From Clostridiaceae bacterium JG1575 (GTDB lineage Bacteria; Bacillota; Clostridia; Clostridiales; Clostridiaceae): DNA of 64,000 nucleotides. The position numbers and the translations under genes are program-made. This document shows, piece by piece, positions 8,965 through 59,225 of this stretch. How positions within the stretch are numbered: position 1 is the stretch's first letter; the number at the start of each line of letters is the position of its first letter. The stretch spans positions 9,700-73,699 of the forward strand of contig LQGW01000055.1 of NCBI GenBank assembly GCA_002838815.1. The letters run 5' to 3'. The notes beneath the pieces were generated by a model that saw only the letters and a program-made list of their open reading frames with translations, ran no database searches and was not told the origin of the DNA.

Positions 8965-9039
8965 TGGTGCACCATACTGGAATCGAACCAGTGCCTAAGG
9001 CTTCGGAGACCTTTGTCCTATCCACTGGACTAATGGTGC
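8965..9039 (-). tRNA. tRNA-Arg (anticodon CCG)
   Basis: The cloverleaf is complete: acceptor GCACCAT/ATGGTGC, D-stem GTCC/GGAC, anticodon loop CTCCGAA (CCG at 34-36), T-stem ACTGG/CCAGT, encoded CCA. It reads CGG codons and is the last gene of the operon. Confidence 0.95.
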
Positions 9040-9083
9040 CTGTTCATAGAATCAGGAATCGGTGGAGTCGAAAGGACAGGCTC

Positions 9084-9159
9084 TGGTCGGGGTGACAGGG
9101 CTCGAACCTGCGACCTCATGCTCCCAAAGCACGCGCGCTCCCAGCTGCGCTACACCCCG
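9084..9159 (-). tRNA. tRNA-Pro (anticodon TGG)
   Basis: Acceptor CGGGGTG/CACCCCG, D-stem GCGC/GCGC, anticodon loop TTTGGGA, T-stem GCAGG/CCTGT with one wobble, encoded CCA. It is the ninth tRNA of the operon. Confidence 0.95.
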
Positions 9160-9191
9160 GCGCCCGTTGCTTACTCTTTCTGAAAAGAAAA

Positions 9192-9267
9192 TGGTGATCC
9201 ACCGGGGAATCGAACCCCGGACACCATGATTAAAAGTCATGTGCTCTACCGACTGAGCTAGTGGATC
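9192..9267 (-). tRNA. tRNA-Lys (anticodon TTT)
   Basis: Acceptor GATCCAC/GTGGATC, D-stem GCTC/GAGC, anticodon loop CTTTTAA, T-stem CGGGG/CCCCG, encoded CCA. Confidence 0.96.
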
Positions 9268-9271
9268 GTAT

Positions 9272-9347
9272 TGGCTGGGGTAGCTGGATTCGAACCAACG
9301 AAATGCCAGAGTCAGAGTCTGGTGCCTTACCGCTTGGCGATACCCCA
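9272..9347 (-). tRNA. tRNA-Gln (anticodon CTG)
   Basis: Acceptor TGGGGTA/TACCCCA with G discriminator, anticodon loop CTCTGAC, encoded CCA. It resembles the tRNA-Gln(TTG) at 9930 closely, suggesting duplication. GatCAB, encoded at 13-16 kb, would amidate Glu-tRNA-Gln in an organism lacking GlnRS. Confidence 0.95.
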
Positions 9348-9454
9348 ACATCTTTTCAGCATATAAGCATGATGTTGTTTCGACGGATTCTCGCAAAGGC
9401 GAAAACCTCTTTTCTTTAATAAAGGGTGATACAATCACCCTGGATTCTTGTGTA

Positions 9455-9531
9455 TGGGGTGAACGATGGGACTCGAACCCACGACAACCAGATCCACAAT
9501 CTGGCGCTCTACCAACTGAACTACGTCCACC
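9455..9531 (-). tRNA. tRNA-His (anticodon GTG)
   Basis: Acceptor GTGGACG/CGTTCAC, anticodon loop TTGTGGA, C discriminator with an encoded G at position -1 opposite it, the identity element of histidine tRNAs. CCA is encoded. Confidence 0.95.
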
Positions 9532-9534
9532 ATA

Positions 9535-9611
9535 TGGTGCGTCACAAGAGATTCGAACTCCTGGCCCTCGCCTTAGAAGGGCGATGCTCTATCCAGCTGA
9601 GCTAGTGACGC
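9535..9611 (-). tRNA. tRNA-Arg (anticodon TCT)
   Basis: Acceptor GCGTCAC/GTGACGC, D-stem GCTC/GAGC, anticodon loop CTTCTAA, T-stem AGGAG/CTCTT, encoded CCA. It reads AGA/AGG codons. Confidence 0.95.
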
Positions 9612-9620
9612 GAAAAAAAA

Positions 9621-9694
9621 TGGAGCGGGTGAAGGGAATCGAACCCTCACGACCAGCTTGGAAGGCTGGGATTCTACCATTGAACTACACCCGC
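9621..9694 (-). tRNA. tRNA-Gly (anticodon TCC)
   Basis: Acceptor GCGGGTG/CACCCGC, anticodon loop CTTCCAA, T discriminator and encoded CCA. Its first base directly abuts the 3' end of the upstream tRNA-Gly(GCC), with no spacer. Confidence 0.95.
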
Positions 9695-9768
9695 GGAGCG
9701 GAAGACGAGATTCGAACTCGCGACATTCACCTTGGCAAGGTGACGCTCTACCACTGAGCCACTCCCGC
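9695..9768 (-). tRNA. tRNA-Gly (anticodon GCC), 3' end lacks encoded A76
   Basis: Acceptor GCGGGAG/CTTCCGC, anticodon loop TTGCCAA, T discriminator. Only CC of the CCA end is encoded; the next base is G1 of tRNA-Gly(TCC). Maturation must cut exactly at the junction and a CCA-adding enzyme must supply the last A. Confidence 0.93.
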
Positions 9769-9791
9769 ATATTACTATTCCATTTTTTTCT

Positions 9792-9876
9792 TGGTGCAGG
9801 TGAAGGGATTCGAACCCCCACACCCGAAGGCGCTAGATCCTAAGTCTAGTGCGTCTGCCAATTCCGCCACACCTGC
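9792..9876 (-). tRNA. tRNA-Leu (anticodon TAG)
   Basis: An 85-base class II tRNA with a long variable arm. Acceptor GCAGGTG/CACCTGC, anticodon loop CTTAGGA, encoded CCA. Confidence 0.95.
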
Positions 9877-9929
9877 CGACAACTGTATAGCCATTATAGC
9901 TGATGCTCCGTCAAAAATCAAAAGAAATT

Positions 9930-10005
9930 TGGCTGGGATAGCAGGACTCGAACCTACGAAATGCCAGAGTCAAAGTCTGGTGCCTTACCACTTGGCTATA
10001 TCCCA
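9930..10005 (-). tRNA. tRNA-Gln (anticodon TTG)
   Basis: Acceptor TGGGATA/TATCCCA with G discriminator, anticodon loop CTTTGAC, encoded CCA. It is the first gene of the ten-tRNA operon, 86 bases after the promoter -10. Confidence 0.95.
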
Positions 10006-53547: not shown

Positions 53548-54195
53548 TTAGTGCGTAGTGCCTAAAGCGGCCATTGGCCTTGGGGACTTTGAGGGTTCGA
53601 TGAGCACGCGCAGCGCCGCAAGGAGTGCTTGCTGAATGTCCTGTGGATTCATGGAGGCATACTGCGGCTTGTCTGCCGTTTGGCTGGGGATAAAAGGAAC
53701 ATGGATGAACCCGGCGGGAAGGTCGCGCTTTTGCTGGGCCAAGGAATGAAGCACTCGGTAAAATACAGCGTTGCAAACAAACGTTCCCGCCGTATAACTC
53801 AAAGTGGCCGGCAGCCCCTCACCTTGAATGGCCGCCACCATCTGATGAACGGGCAGGGTCGCGAAATAGGCACAAGGGCCCTGGGCCTCCAGGGGATGCC
53901 CTTGCGGCTGAAATCCATCGTTGTCGGGGATGCGGGCCTCCTGCCAGTTGATCGCTGCAAATTCCGGCGTCACACAGGTACGGCCTCCCGCCTGACCTAC
54001 TAGAACCACGGCGTCCACCTGTTCTTCATCCACCGCGCGCAACAAAGGCTCGAGGCAGCGCTCAAAGGCGGTGGGAATGCATAAGGGCACAAGCTGTGCG
54101 CCCAGATATGCCTTGGGCAGGGAGGAGACCACCTCCCAGGCGGGATTGATGGATTCCTCCCCGAATGGGGTGAAGCCGGTGACTAAAATTTTCAT
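53548..54195 (-). CDS. pcp: Pyroglutamyl-peptidase I
   Basis: A 215-residue cysteine peptidase removing N-terminal pyroglutamate from peptides. Catalytic residues Glu78 (TPEFAAIN), Cys141 (AGTFVCNAVFY) and His165 (FIHVPFIP) are all in place. A 15-20 residue C-terminal tail is extra. Overlaps the upstream membrane-protein gene by four bases (ATGA). Confidence 0.94.
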   Translation of the reverse strand: MKILVTGFTPFGEESINPAWEVVSSLPKAYLGAQLVPLCIPTAFERCLEPLLRAVDEEQVDAVVLVGQAGGRTCVTPEFAAINWQEARIPDNDGFQPQGHPLEAQGPCAYFATLPVHQMVAAIQGEGLPATLSYTAGTFVCNAVFYRVLHSLAQQKRDLPAGFIHVPFIPSQTADKPQYASMNPQDIQQALLAALRVLIEPSKSPRPMAALGTTH

Positions 54196-55502
54196 GAGGA
54201 TGAACGCTCCTTCGCTATTTTTTGAGCCAGCGCATGGTGGCGGCCCGCTTGAGGATAGTAGACGGTTTTCGAGACCACCCGAGAATGGGGGCGGCGATAT
54301 TCTTGCTCCAAAAAAGCATAGTACGAGCCGGGGCTGATGATTCCGGAAATGTTGATGATGTCGATGCCCGACTGTCCGACGATGGCGTCGGCCAGCTGCA
54401 CGCAGTTGGTGGAAAAGACAAAGTAGGAGCGAAACCGGGACCCCCGGAATTTATAGGCCTTCAGGGTGTGGTTCCAATTGACCCGTTGCGTATAGGCATC
54501 CGTCTGCTCCATTTTTCGGTTGTCAAAGGGCACGGTCTGGGAGAGAATCTCTTGGAGACGCGATTCCACTCGCTCCCGCTGCTCATTCGTCAGATGGATG
54601 CCGTAGACAAAGGCCAGACGATCCTTATTTTTTTCGATGGCTTTTTCATAATCCTCGTGGGGAATGACGCGCAACACCCCATCCCCCAAGGTGCCGAAGA
54701 GACGATTGGAAAACTTGTCGTAGGCGCCATAAGAATAGTTGAAGCCCTTATAGGTGATGTCCACATGGCCAAAGCGTCCGAAGCCTTTGGGGTTGGCGTG
54801 CACCCAAACTTTGAGGTCGCTTTCTTCCTCTTTTTTGACGTAGGGCAGTTGCTCCCCTTGCTGACCCTCCGCCATAAAGCGGTTGAAGGCCAAGAGCGCC
54901 TGGTAGGGCAACAAGGCGCTGAGCCCCGCCGGAAGTGTGATGCGGATGCGCCGCTTCAGATTGGTGATGGGTTCGGTTTTTAGATAGGTGATTTCATCGA
55001 TTAGCGCTGAGAGGCCCACCAAAACCAAGTACCACCCCAAAATTTCATAAAGAATGGGAGCACGCGCTGCGGTATTGCCGGCAATGATGCCCACAAAGGT
55101 CAAGTTGAGCAGCGCCTGAACCAGGTTCCAGCGGCGGTTGTGCACTCCGTCTCGCCTCAAAAGATGCCAGGTAATGGCGTAGGTGATGCCCATCCAGAGA
55201 AAATAGCCTAAGATGATCCCGGTCAAAAAGGAATTCGGCCAGCGAGAAAAATAAAAGACGAGGCCAAGAAGAATCTGCACCAAGGACTGTCCCACATGCC
55301 CAAGCCCGCGCTTGAGGCCGCTTTTCATGATTAAAAAGGGCACCTGGATGAGACCAATGCCCCCCAAGGCTACGCTGACGATGCCCACCAGGCGTATGAG
55401 GGGAAAGATGGCCTGATTGCGAAAACGAATCAAAAGAATGCCCAAGCAAAGAAACAATACGCCCGATAAAATCGGGAGGTACCCGCGATATTTACGAACC
55501 AT
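54192..55502 (-). CDS. Membrane protein with DUF308-like helices and predicted permuted papain-like domain
   Basis: A 436-residue protein. Residues about 8-190 form five or six helices, resembling HdeD/DUF308. After a linker the C-terminal 220 residues contain FGHVDITYKG (His near 260) and STNCVQLAD (Cys near 370), the His-then-Cys order of permuted NlpC/P60 (YiiX-type) domains, followed by ISPGSYYAF. I infer a papain-like hydrolase or acyltransferase fold; the match is by pattern only. ATG at 55502 with AAGGGGGAA is preferred to 55523. First gene of a four-gene operon with pcp and the nucleoside hydrolase pair. Confidence 0.65.
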   Translation of the reverse strand: MVRKYRGYLPILSGVLFLCLGILLIRFRNQAIFPLIRLVGIVSVALGGIGLIQVPFLIMKSGLKRGLGHVGQSLVQILLGLVFYFSRWPNSFLTGIILGYFLWMGITYAITWHLLRRDGVHNRRWNLVQALLNLTFVGIIAGNTAARAPILYEILGWYLVLVGLSALIDEITYLKTEPITNLKRRIRITLPAGLSALLPYQALLAFNRFMAEGQQGEQLPYVKKEEESDLKVWVHANPKGFGRFGHVDITYKGFNYSYGAYDKFSNRLFGTLGDGVLRVIPHEDYEKAIEKNKDRLAFVYGIHLTNEQRERVESRLQEILSQTVPFDNRKMEQTDAYTQRVNWNHTLKAYKFRGSRFRSYFVFSTNCVQLADAIVGQSGIDIINISGIISPGSYYAFLEQEYRRPHSRVVSKTVYYPQAGRHHALAQKIAKERSSS

Positions 55503-55714
55503 TGATTCCCCCTTCCTGCGCACCCAACGCTCCTTTTTTGAAAAATCAGCGAGGGCTCGCTCCCAAGAGCTCTCCTTAATAGTACCGCAAAAGGCTCCTA
55601 CTGTCCCTTCTCTGCTTCGATGGGTCCTTTAAAAAAGCACGTCCCCCCATTCATAGCCTCCTCTTCCCCCCCTTAGCCCCCTCTCGCTGGTCGGCGCCGG
55701 AGGACTCCTACGAG

Positions 55715-55751
55715 AAAAGCCCCCTCTCACCTGGTGCGAAAAGGGGGCTTT
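55715..55751 (-). terminator. Terminator after the lipoprotein gene
   Basis: AAAGCCCCCT pairs with AGGGGGCTTT around a 16-base loop; the minus strand ends in TTTTCTCG. It touches the stop codon at 55750. Confidence 0.8.
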
Positions 55752-56976
55752 AGTGCGGGCTTTTGAGGTGCGTGCTGCGAGGATAGGGCTTGCCGTTTTT
55801 CGGCGGATCCTGCAAGGGGCTGTGCAGCTTGATCAGTTCAATGCTCGAGAGCCGTGCGTTGTTTTTAGTGATGGCAAAGCGCAACGTGAAGCCGTTTCTG
55901 ATGACTTCATACCATAAAAGATCCGCGGTGTCCCGTTTGCGGGGCTTATACGGCTGGATGTAGCCAAAGAGCTTTTTCTGCGTCATACCGTTGCAAAGGG
56001 TGTGGGAGAGCTGCATGCTTAAGGGATCGTTGGGCGTTTGGTTTCGCACGCCGATGACCAGTGCCTCGGAAAGATCCATCATCGTGGCGGCATGGTTGAA
56101 GACCTTAAGGGTGATGCGTTGGCTTCCTCGTTTTAAGCGAAGGGGGCCTTGGGTCTGGGGAATCATGGGATAAATCCGCTGGTTGATTTCCCAGCCGTTA
56201 TTTTGAAACTGGCGAAGCTCGGCGGGCAAGCGGTAGAACTCCCCCTCAAGGAGGAGCCGTCCGGTGGAGATGTCTTCTCCCCAATGCGGCTCTTCCAGAT
56301 GGAGAAAGAGCGGCTCGATTCCCATATCCTTCGTCTGCACGGCATGGCGCACGGAAAATCCTTCAATACGGTCGTTCCGACTGTAAAGAAAAATCCGTTC
56401 ATCGCCCCGATGGTATTCCAACTCCTCCCCATAAGTCGTGGGACGGACCTTCATCGGTCTTCCGCGCTTCACATGAAGCTCCGAGCGCTTCATGCCTTGG
56501 CGCAGCGTCTCATCCAAGCGAAAAAAGACGGGAGCAAAGTTTGGATTTTGCGTCACGCGAACTCCGGCGATCCAGCCGGACTTTAAAACAATGGGGTCTG
56601 AAGCTGTGAGGTTTCCTGCAATGCAATGAAGCACGGCGTTGCCTTTATAAAGCACGACATTTTCATAACAAACGCCCGGTGGCAACCATTCGTAATCCCA
56701 AGACGGATCCAAGGTCCAGCCCTTTGCCAACAACTCTTCAATGCGGCAGGGGATCTGGATCGTTTCTCCTTCCAAGGAGAATTCAAAGGGCTCCCCTTTG
56801 GGCAACGGAATCCGTTTGGGCCGCTGCGCCGGCTGCGGCTCCACTTCAAGGAGCACCTTGCCCGAGGAGCGCGTCAGATGAATTCCTTCGGGAGTTTGAC
56901 ACCCCGAGAGGAACAAAAGGACCATTAAAACCCAAGATAATCTCTTGGATTTTTGTATAAACCAGTGAGCCTTCAA
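55750..56976 (-). CDS. Lipoprotein with two related domains, unknown function
   Basis: A 408-residue lipoprotein. Signal peptide with lipobox LFLSGC puts the lipidated Cys at 26. Two segments look homologous: one near residues 60-145 (EGETIQIPCRIEELLAKGW ... VLYKGNAVLHCIAGNL) and one near 245-335 (EGEFYRLPAELRQFQNNGW ... LKRGSQRITLKVFNHA), each with a conserved GW after an amphipathic helix. Family not recognised; such domains occur in lipoproteins of anaerobic Bacillota. Start is TTG at 56976 with GGGAGGAG at proper spacing, giving a clean signal peptide; a TTG at 57024 is rejected. Confidence 0.75.
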   Translation of the reverse strand: MKAHWFIQKSKRLSWVLMVLLFLSGCQTPEGIHLTRSSGKVLLEVEPQPAQRPKRIPLPKGEPFEFSLEGETIQIPCRIEELLAKGWTLDPSWDYEWLPPGVCYENVVLYKGNAVLHCIAGNLTASDPIVLKSGWIAGVRVTQNPNFAPVFFRLDETLRQGMKRSELHVKRGRPMKVRPTTYGEELEYHRGDERIFLYSRNDRIEGFSVRHAVQTKDMGIEPLFLHLEEPHWGEDISTGRLLLEGEFYRLPAELRQFQNNGWEINQRIYPMIPQTQGPLRLKRGSQRITLKVFNHAATMMDLSEALVIGVRNQTPNDPLSMQLSHTLCNGMTQKKLFGYIQPYKPRKRDTADLLWYEVIRNGFTLRFAITKNNARLSSIELIKLHSPLQDPPKNGKPYPRSTHLKSPH

Positions 56977-57099
56977 GCGTTTCTCCTCCCTAAGGGGGTG
57001 CCATGTCCCCGTTTTTTGCTTCAAAGATCATTTTACAATACTTTGAGCAGAAAATGAAGAAGGTCAAGGAACGAGCCTGCCCCCTCTGAAGGCTTCCTG

Positions 57100-57744
57100 T
57101 TACTCCAAGGCCCCATAGGTCCTCACCACAGGTTGAACGTAGAGAATGCCCGCTCCGGGCTCTTCGAGGTGCATCTTGGCGGCAATGGCTTGGCAAAGCG
57201 CCTGGGTTTTATGCTGTGGCGTCAATAATAGCAGCATTTCCTTTTCCGGCTGTATGTCCATCATGAACACTCGGGCGGTTTCATGAGGTCCCGCTCCCCG
57301 AGCATTGACGATGGTTCCGCCCTGGGCGCCGGCCGCCGTGGCGGCCGCCATGGCTTCCTCGGCCTTTCCTTTATCGACGATCACGGTAATTAGTTCATAC
57401 ATGGTGGATTCCTCCCGCTCTTGCCTGGCATCGGATGATTGAAATGTAGTGCCTCCCCACACGGATCCTACCGGGATCGAAAAGGCAATGCCCCCTCCGG
57501 GGCGCTCAAGGTAGTGGCGCTCTGCCAAAGTGGCCATAACCTTTCGGGCCGTGGGTTCTTGGGCGAGCATCCCAATGATTTCTTTTCTGGTTCGGTCCAA
57601 TCCCCAAAAGCTCCAGCGACTGCCTTCATAGGTTCCAAACCCCATAAAGGTCGTGGCCCCGCTCATGCCCTCTTCTCGGGCGATATGAATCAGTCGGTCG
57701 GCCGCTCCTTCTGCGACGATGACGTAAATCAATTCCAAGTTCAT
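57100..57744 (-). CDS. Tandem P-II-like protein (two fused domains)
   Basis: A 214-residue cytoplasmic protein with two copies of a P-II/GlnB-like ferredoxin fold: residues 1-97 and 114-214. Each begins with an ELIYVIV/ELITVIV strand and ends with LAERHYLERPGGGIAFSIPV or IAAKMHLEEPGAGILYVQPV, an exact structural echo. The T-loop lacks the uridylylated Tyr of GlnB. P-II trimers normally bind 2-oxoglutarate/ATP; a fused dimer would need a different oligomer. Overlaps the DUF1538 gene by four bases (ATGA), so it is very probably that protein's regulatory partner. Confidence 0.8.
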   Translation of the reverse strand: MNLELIYVIVAEGAADRLIHIAREEGMSGATTFMGFGTYEGSRWSFWGLDRTRKEIIGMLAQEPTARKVMATLAERHYLERPGGGIAFSIPVGSVWGGTTFQSSDARQEREESTMYELITVIVDKGKAEEAMAAATAAGAQGGTIVNARGAGPHETARVFMMDIQPEKEMLLLLTPQHKTQALCQAIAAKMHLEEPGAGILYVQPVVRTYGALE

Positions 57745-59225
57745 GAATGGATCTCCTTTTTGCGGCCGCTGTAGCGAAAGAACACGCCCAGCACCTGCAG
57801 CGCAATGAGGGGTGTCATGGCCACCATGGCAATCATACCAAAGCCGTCGGCCACAGGGGAAGCCCCGGGCGTGGCTTTGGTGATCCCTTGCATAAACGCA
57901 AGAATAAAGGTGGCGGTCATCGGCCCAGAGGCCACGCCTCCAGAATCAAAGGCGATGCCCACAAAAAGCTTCGGGGCAAAAAAAGAAAGCAAAAACGCCG
58001 TAAGGTAACCCGGCAGCAAATAATGCCACAATAGAAGACCCGGGGTAATGATTCGAAGGGCCGAGAGCGCCACTGCGGCCCCCACGCCCAGGCAAAGCAT
58101 CGAGAGCACCAAAGGACGTGGCACATAGCCTGAAGTGACCTCTTGGACCTGATGGGTGAGCACATGGACCGCAGGCTCGGATAGTATGGTAAAAAATCCC
58201 AAAAGAAACGCCGCCAAAAGTAAGGGCCCCGCGCCATACGAGCGGGTTAGGCGATACCCCAAAAGACGGCCCACCTCCATAAAGCCCGCATGCACGCCCC
58301 AAAGAAAGAGCACAAGACCCAAAAAGGCAAAGAAGAAACTCAAAAGGATTCGCCTCGCCCCGCGCTTGGACCAGTGCCGTCCCTTCCCTTGAAAAATCAG
58401 GAAGAAAACCAGTAGGGGCAGCAAGGACACCAAAGAATCCAGCGCTAAAGTGGGAAGGATGGCGAAAAAAGCCCCCGTCCCCGAACCCGCCATCGATTCG
58501 TTCAAGCCGATGGCGCCAGATAGCGGCGAGCCGCCTCGCACAATGCGCAGCAAAAGCACCGCCAAAATGGCCCCAGCCGAGGCCAAACCGACTAAGCCAA
58601 AGGCATCCTCCTCCGAGCCCTTACTGTCCTTTTTCAGGGCCGAAACCCCAAGAGCCAAGGCTAGGACAAAGGGAACGGTCAAGGCTCCCGTGGTGGCGCC
58701 GGAGGCATCGAAGGCCACCGCTAAAAAGTCCGGCCCCACCCAAAAAGCCAGAAAAAGAATCAATCCGTAGGCCACAAAAAGCATGCGTTGCAGCGCAATG
58801 GCGTAGAGAATCCGCAAAAGCCCCAAGGTGATTACCAGCGCCACCCCTAGGGAAACCACGCCGATCAAAAGCCCTCGGGGCAACTCCCCTCGGGTGATGC
58901 CTTCCAATTGGCCGGCCAGGATCTGAAGATCCGGTTCCGCCAGGGTGATCAAAAACCCTAAAAGAAGACCCAGCGTCAGGACCAGCCACACCTTGCCCTT
59001 TCGCGTCATCCAAGAGCCTAAGGAAGCCCCTAGGGGCGTAATGCTGCCTTCAATGCCGATGAGCAAAAACGTCAGGCCCCCAAAAATCAGCAACACCCCC
59101 AAGGAAAAGCGCAGCAAAAGCTCGCCCGGCAGGGGGACCCAGGTGGCGTGGAGCAATAGCACCAACAGGACGACGGGGGCTAAGGATGCCCCCACCTCCT
59201 TCATTTTCACGGTCAATTCATTCAT
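57741..59225 (-). CDS. DUF1538 family integral membrane protein
   Basis: A 494-residue protein with 12 or more helices in two repeats; each repeat has GFLITLAEPDLQILAGQ/GFFTILSEPAVHVLTHQ, then SLGVALVI/CLGVGAAV and AFDASGATTGALTVPF/AFDSGGVASGPMTATF. This pseudo-symmetry suggests an inverted- or direct-repeat transporter. DUF1538 proteins are commonly adjacent to P-II-like proteins; no substrate has been settled to my knowledge. Translationally coupled to the tandem P-II-like gene. Confidence 0.88.
   Translation of the reverse strand: MNELTVKMKEVGASLAPVVLLVLLLHATWVPLPGELLLRFSLGVLLIFGGLTFLLIGIEGSITPLGASLGSWMTRKGKVWLVLTLGLLLGFLITLAEPDLQILAGQLEGITRGELPRGLLIGVVSLGVALVITLGLLRILYAIALQRMLFVAYGLILFLAFWVGPDFLAVAFDASGATTGALTVPFVLALALGVSALKKDSKGSEEDAFGLVGLASAGAILAVLLLRIVRGGSPLSGAIGLNESMAGSGTGAFFAILPTLALDSLVSLLPLLVFFLIFQGKGRHWSKRGARRILLSFFFAFLGLVLFLWGVHAGFMEVGRLLGYRLTRSYGAGPLLLAAFLLGFFTILSEPAVHVLTHQVQEVTSGYVPRPLVLSMLCLGVGAAVALSALRIITPGLLLWHYLLPGYLTAFLLSFFAPKLFVGIAFDSGGVASGPMTATFILAFMQGITKATPGASPVADGFGMIAMVAMTPLIALQVLGVFFRYSGRKKEIHS

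Follow-up and report, generated by a model that had tools for sequence, protein, structure and literature searches.

Transporters can be controlled by direct docking of a P-II protein (reviewed in PMC10710835). In the GlnK-AmtB pair, the P-II protein is encoded together with its transporter and is a single-domain homotrimer with a long T-loop, Tyr51 and an ATP/2-oxoglutarate site; in the cyanobacterial SbtB-SbtA pair, a non-nitrogen P-II-like protein with a single P-II domain controls a secondary transporter for bicarbonate. The PII-NG proteins, a proteobacterial clade of single-domain P-IIs (e.g., Geobacter GSU2134), cluster with the CzcABC metal/proton antiporters, which are RND heavy-metal pumps (PMC7726332). 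As for the DUF1538 family, the pair UmpAB of Halomonas zhaodongensis, encoded by two separate genes, works as a heterodimer, a Na+(Li+,K+)/H+ antiporter whose optimum lies at pH 9, as demonstrated in E. coli KNabc in a paper that does not mention P-II (PMC5484666). DUF1538 has also been ranked within the top 20 predictors of the pH at which growth is optimal (PMC13255231).

The locus presented here, part of a 64,000-nucleotide stretch of DNA from Clostridiaceae bacterium JG1575 (the window), carries a gene for a fused DUF1538 membrane protein together with one for a tandem P-II-like protein. It is like GlnK-AmtB in that a P-II fold is encoded with a transporter, and like SbtB-SbtA in that a P-II-like protein outside nitrogen control would act on a secondary transporter, but the transporter family differs from both and the P-II protein has two domains rather than one. 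The parallel with PII-NG beside CzcABC, a P-II gene in an operon with a (here putative) cation/proton antiporter, is striking, although the type of pump, the single P-II domain and the proteobacterial host are all different. The features of the locus, in window positions, are the following.

57741-59225, (-) strand: fused DUF1538 membrane protein gene, 494 aa
58932-58937, (-) strand: E97-P98, break of the discontinuous helix in repeat 1, E97 invariant (alignment, helix map, charged-residue scan)
58707-58712, (-) strand: F172-D173 of AFDASGATTG in repeat 1, D173 97% conserved (alignment, helix map, charged-residue scan)
58173-58178, (-) strand: E350-P351 of SEPAV in repeat 2, invariant (alignment, helix map, charged-residue scan)
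57945-57950, (-) strand: F426-D427 of AFDSGGVASG in repeat 2, D427 invariant (alignment, helix map, charged-residue scan)
57100-57744, (-) strand: tandem P-II-like gene, 214 aa
57412-57744, (-) strand: N-terminal P-II domain, about residues 1-111 including the linker (alignment, residue table)
57103-57411, (-) strand: C-terminal P-II domain, about residues 112-214 (residue table, group consensus)

The sequence-only reading of this locus had placed both open reading frames exactly, as re-reading them from the window confirmed, and had described the P-II-like gene as overlapping a two-repeat DUF1538 gene. This is indeed the arrangement found: the genes share a 4-base ATGA overlap, with the P-II gene as the downstream one, and an AAGGAG ribosome-binding site sits in the 3' end of the DUF1538 gene. 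When the window and 48 related loci were scanned with Rfam, no riboswitch came up directly upstream of the pair, and riboswitch control was rejected on this basis. Adjoining the pair (54192-57024) are two ORFs without a significant Pfam match, encoding a 443-aa protein with an N-terminal membrane part and a 424-aa probable lipoprotein; ten clustered tRNA genes lie elsewhere in the window, at 8968-10005(-).

That two P-II-like folds share one chain, a claim which the sequence-only reading had made to depend on structure prediction of the halves, is borne out. Pfam P-II (PF00543) matches the 214-aa protein in two stretches (E 4e-14, 53.2 bits against a cut-off of 25), and the two halves resemble each other with a self-similarity score of 99, compared to a maximum of 53 in 1000 shuffles. 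In the AlphaFold2 model (pLDDT 86, pTM 0.81; the input alignments for this and the model below were built only from sequences gathered in this analysis), each half forms the ferredoxin-like order strand-helix-strand-strand-helix-strand, and Foldseek pairs the model with experimentally determined GlnK/P-II structures (E 6e-6, target TM up to approximately 0.78). SbtB is a weak, sub-threshold profile match (E 0.2), PstA is not among the matches, and the best PDB profile match is 9p1x, a structure with two P-II chain types that may be NifI. NifI1 and NifI2 are P-IIs of different type that work jointly, which is the likeness to the two domains found here, but they are encoded by separate genes and their target is nitrogenase.

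With E. coli GlnB as the residue reference (sequence checked against 1pil), the tandem protein retains the equivalents of Thr29, Gly35 and Lys58, and its T-loop is 5 residues shorter. The uridylylation site Tyr51 is absent (T52/P166 at this position), as is the ATP-site Lys90 (I86/I200), and the C-tail TYGALE has no arginine where Arg101/Arg103 would be. The marks of a canonical GlnB or GlnK, namely Tyr51 with a full-length T-loop, the ATP-site basic residues and linkage to Amt, are all missing. Across the P-II subfamily, too, the uridylylation tyrosine is gone, as are several basic residues of the ATP site. What the P-II subfamily does keep is a glycine loop with a GRGxGxHE motif, complete only in the C-terminal half, where GGTI..RGxGxHE...QPEKE forms a conserved putative ligand loop; the loop of the N-terminal domain is degenerate, with the Gly35 equivalent retained and the second glycine and H-E motif gone. 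The same holds across relatives, in which C-halves and single-domain P-IIs share a near-invariant GGT...RGxG, followed mostly by HE and further along by PEK, and in which most N-halves lack the second glycine as well as the H-E pair. Judged from these residues, the tandem protein looks like a combination of one ligand-competent and one degenerate domain. Canonical ATP/2-oxoglutarate sensing seems doubtful because Tyr51, Lys90 and Arg101/103 are lost and one half is degenerate, and a ligand other than ATP/2-oxoglutarate is likely.

The genomic context also departs from that of GlnK-AmtB. No Amt was found in the window genome, which is 97% complete, in a search where 14/14 controls were positive, and a whole-genome Pfam search returned no P-II above the cut-off besides the tandem gene of the window. 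Since both are lacking, the tandem P-II does not belong to the usual ammonium module, and classical nitrogen signalling was rejected as the main reading, given a genome without Amt or canonical GlnB/GlnK and the loss of key residues. Below the Pfam cut-off, two additional tandem P-II-like ORFs in this genome have no DUF1538 gene next to them: one of 213 aa (L066:4602-5243(+), contig C52), whose neighbours look like an esterase and DNA polymerase IV, and one of 273 aa (L067:5304-6125(-), contig C29), with no obvious partner.

For the 494-aa protein, Pfam DUF1538 (PF07556) likewise matches in two stretches (E 8e-125, 414.6 bits), the halves give a self-similarity score of 235 against a shuffled maximum of 95 (1000 shuffles), and the AlphaFold2 model has two similar halves (pLDDT 85, pTM 0.86). 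Each half contains two helices broken at conserved acidic motifs, [AS]EP (E97/E350) and FD[AS][SG]G (D173/D427), and the carboxylates E97, D173, E350 and D427 may be those that carry the ions. The protein had been taken for a membrane protein of unknown function; this does not hold for its family, in which Halomonas UmpAB is characterised (PMC5484666). UmpAB belongs to the same Pfam family and has two DUF1538 repeats working as a pair, so that the window protein is predicted to combine an UmpA-like and an UmpB-like repeat in one chain as a putative cation/proton antiporter core, but it scores far below the NCBIfam UmpA and UmpB equivalog cut-offs (NF041627, 143.6 bits vs. 490; NF041628, 121.4 vs. 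500).

This distance bears on what is transported. The substrate may be something other than Na+/K+, such as a divalent metal, ammonium or a small anion, with the P-II protein sensing it or a related metabolite; besides the low equivalog scores, this would suit the association of PII-NG with the CzcABC metal/proton antiporters (PMC7726332), a conserved loop H-E pair that could bind metal, and the lack of a PDB relative by sequence or fold. No PDB relative of the DUF1538 protein was found by profile search or by Foldseek at E<=0.001, and fold relatives were rejected accordingly. We nevertheless regard another substrate as unlikely, if well worth keeping in mind, as the sole DUF1538 pair to have been characterised exchanges monovalent cations for protons and the invariant acidic residues fit cation/proton exchange.

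It is clear from the distribution of the two families that they belong together. Among 300 genomes of one phylum, taken from the relatives to be Bacillota (299 sampled plus that of the window), DUF1538 is present in 101, a P-II resembling the tandem protein in 103, and both in 100 (Fisher p 4e-75, relatedness uncorrected), so the co-occurrence on which the sequence-only reading had staked its coupling of sensor and transporter is there. A set of 80 DUF1538 loci from GTDB genomes, found with DUF1538 alone and without use of P-II, spans methanogens, Deltaproteobacteria, Chloroflexi, Bacilli, Clostridia, Balneolaceae, Spirochaetes, Aminicenantes and Caldiserica; in 75 of them a P-II gene lies directly downstream on the same strand, with a median gap of -8 bases. 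One of the other five is cut by a contig end and four have no P-II (three Sutcliffiella-type and Metabacillus lacus), nor did a profile search, run with no positive control, find one elsewhere in these four genomes. As natural P-II-less variants, these loci (L111, L137, L139 and L155) are useful controls. Across 72,556 plasmids, a DUF1538 query and an independent single-domain P-II query return the identical nine records, including three-gene umpA-umpB-P-II operons in the alphaproteobacteria Methylocystis (L090) and Chelativorans (L089), there carried on conjugative or mobilizable plasmids. The pairing is near-obligate and recurs across bacteria and archaea, and it is very probable that DUF1538 transporters come with a regulator of their own, built into the system.

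The genes flanking the module are varied, with about half on the opposite strand, and the module is therefore self-contained; a conserved third partner was rejected on a Pfam scan in which no family occurred in more than 4/69 or 4/74 of the neighbours. Some loci depart from the common layout. In a rare case (L077/L078, genome G218) the two are separated, with DUF1538 on one contig and the tandem P-II on another, and do not appear to be neighbours. At L072:1660-4513 (genome G037) a first DUF1538 gene is truncated beside two ORFs resembling an insertion element and is followed by a second, intact DUF1538 gene and two P-II genes. A single-chain DUF1538-P-II fusion at L079 was dropped, as runs of N bridge the join.

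The breadth of this distribution also affects the choice of ligand. A P-II protein of PstA/DarA type could tie cation efflux to c-di-AMP: the window genome encodes a diadenylate cyclase, K+ homeostasis in Firmicutes is under the control of c-di-AMP, and this nucleotide has a P-II-like receptor in PstA (PMC4316997). The only c-di-AMP riboswitch in the 48 related loci, however, comes after the P-II genes and precedes another gene. The same operon also occurs in alphaproteobacteria and Balneolaceae, groups that to our knowledge are not known for c-di-AMP signalling, and we hold this explanation to be very improbable.

Domain numbers follow a pattern as well. Five arrangements are seen: a split DUF1538 pair may be joined by one P-II gene, by two, or by a fused P-II, and a fused DUF1538 either by two P-II genes or by a fused one, the last being the arrangement in the window. 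In the 80-locus set, all 21 fused DUF1538 genes are accompanied by two P-II domains, compared to 33/59 of the split pairs with P-II, which have either one or two (p 7e-5, phylogeny uncorrected), in agreement with the earlier suggestion that the transporter halves match the two-domain sensor. A tree of P-II domains sets N-halves and most first genes apart from C-halves, second genes and singles, and the two types are therefore probably old paralogues that were later fused. Fusion is thus no defining trait of the system but one of the forms taken by a widespread operon of two to four genes. Proteins of the P-II superfamily are trimers with the ligand at the subunit interface, and the fusion of two domains may change this classical trimer, as the sequence-only reading had proposed. 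The correlation of domain numbers, together with near-exclusive mutual co-occurrence over many phyla, favours a physical partnership over a P-II protein that merely shares the operon and acts on transcription or relays its signal elsewhere. P-II proteins can have several partners and the window genome has the two further tandem P-II-like ORFs without DUF1538, but we consider such a role improbable.

With this in mind, we lean towards reading the two genes, by analogy with the systems above, as a transporter under ligand-dependent gating by its own P-II-like protein, and hold this with moderate confidence. The 494-aa protein would be a fused UmpA-UmpB-type secondary transporter, most likely a Na+/K+-proton antiporter in view of Halomonas UmpAB, with its ion path formed by the four carboxylates at the helix breaks of the two repeats. 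The 214-aa protein, a dedicated regulator with one degenerate and one ligand-competent domain, would bind a cytosolic small molecule and then dock on the transporter, opening or shutting it in the manner of GlnK on AmtB or of SbtB on SbtA. Against this reading, the window protein reaches only 143.6 of the 490 bits of the UmpA cut-off, so the ion could differ, and several nucleotide-site residues are lost from the tandem P-II. Moreover, the P-II-controlled transporters that we know of are trimeric or of ABC type, and for DUF1538 only the UmpAB heterodimer is known. UmpAB is active in E. coli with no P-II added and four loci lack P-II; the P-II protein is therefore not needed for basic transport. 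A bolder version, which we find rather doubtful and offer tentatively, is that DUF1538 transporters make up a new structural class among cation/proton antiporters and depend obligately for their gating on a P-II subfamily of their own, which would have a new ligand (not ATP/2-oxoglutarate), with one P-II domain per repeat in fused forms and a complex symmetry unlike the known trimeric ones.

In the open-access literature (subscription papers and preprints being outside its scope), texts naming DUF1538 do not name a P-II annotation alongside, and tandem or fused P-II gave no match. RefSeq already labels the DUF1538 and P-II genes side by side, so the novelty lies in recognition of the system and not in unseen genes. 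If the gating reading is true, many bacteria and methanogens would couple ion and pH homeostasis to a metabolite signal, and the missing ligand would become directly testable. A large class of genes labelled "P-II family nitrogen regulator," which are probably unrelated to nitrogen, would be explained as well.
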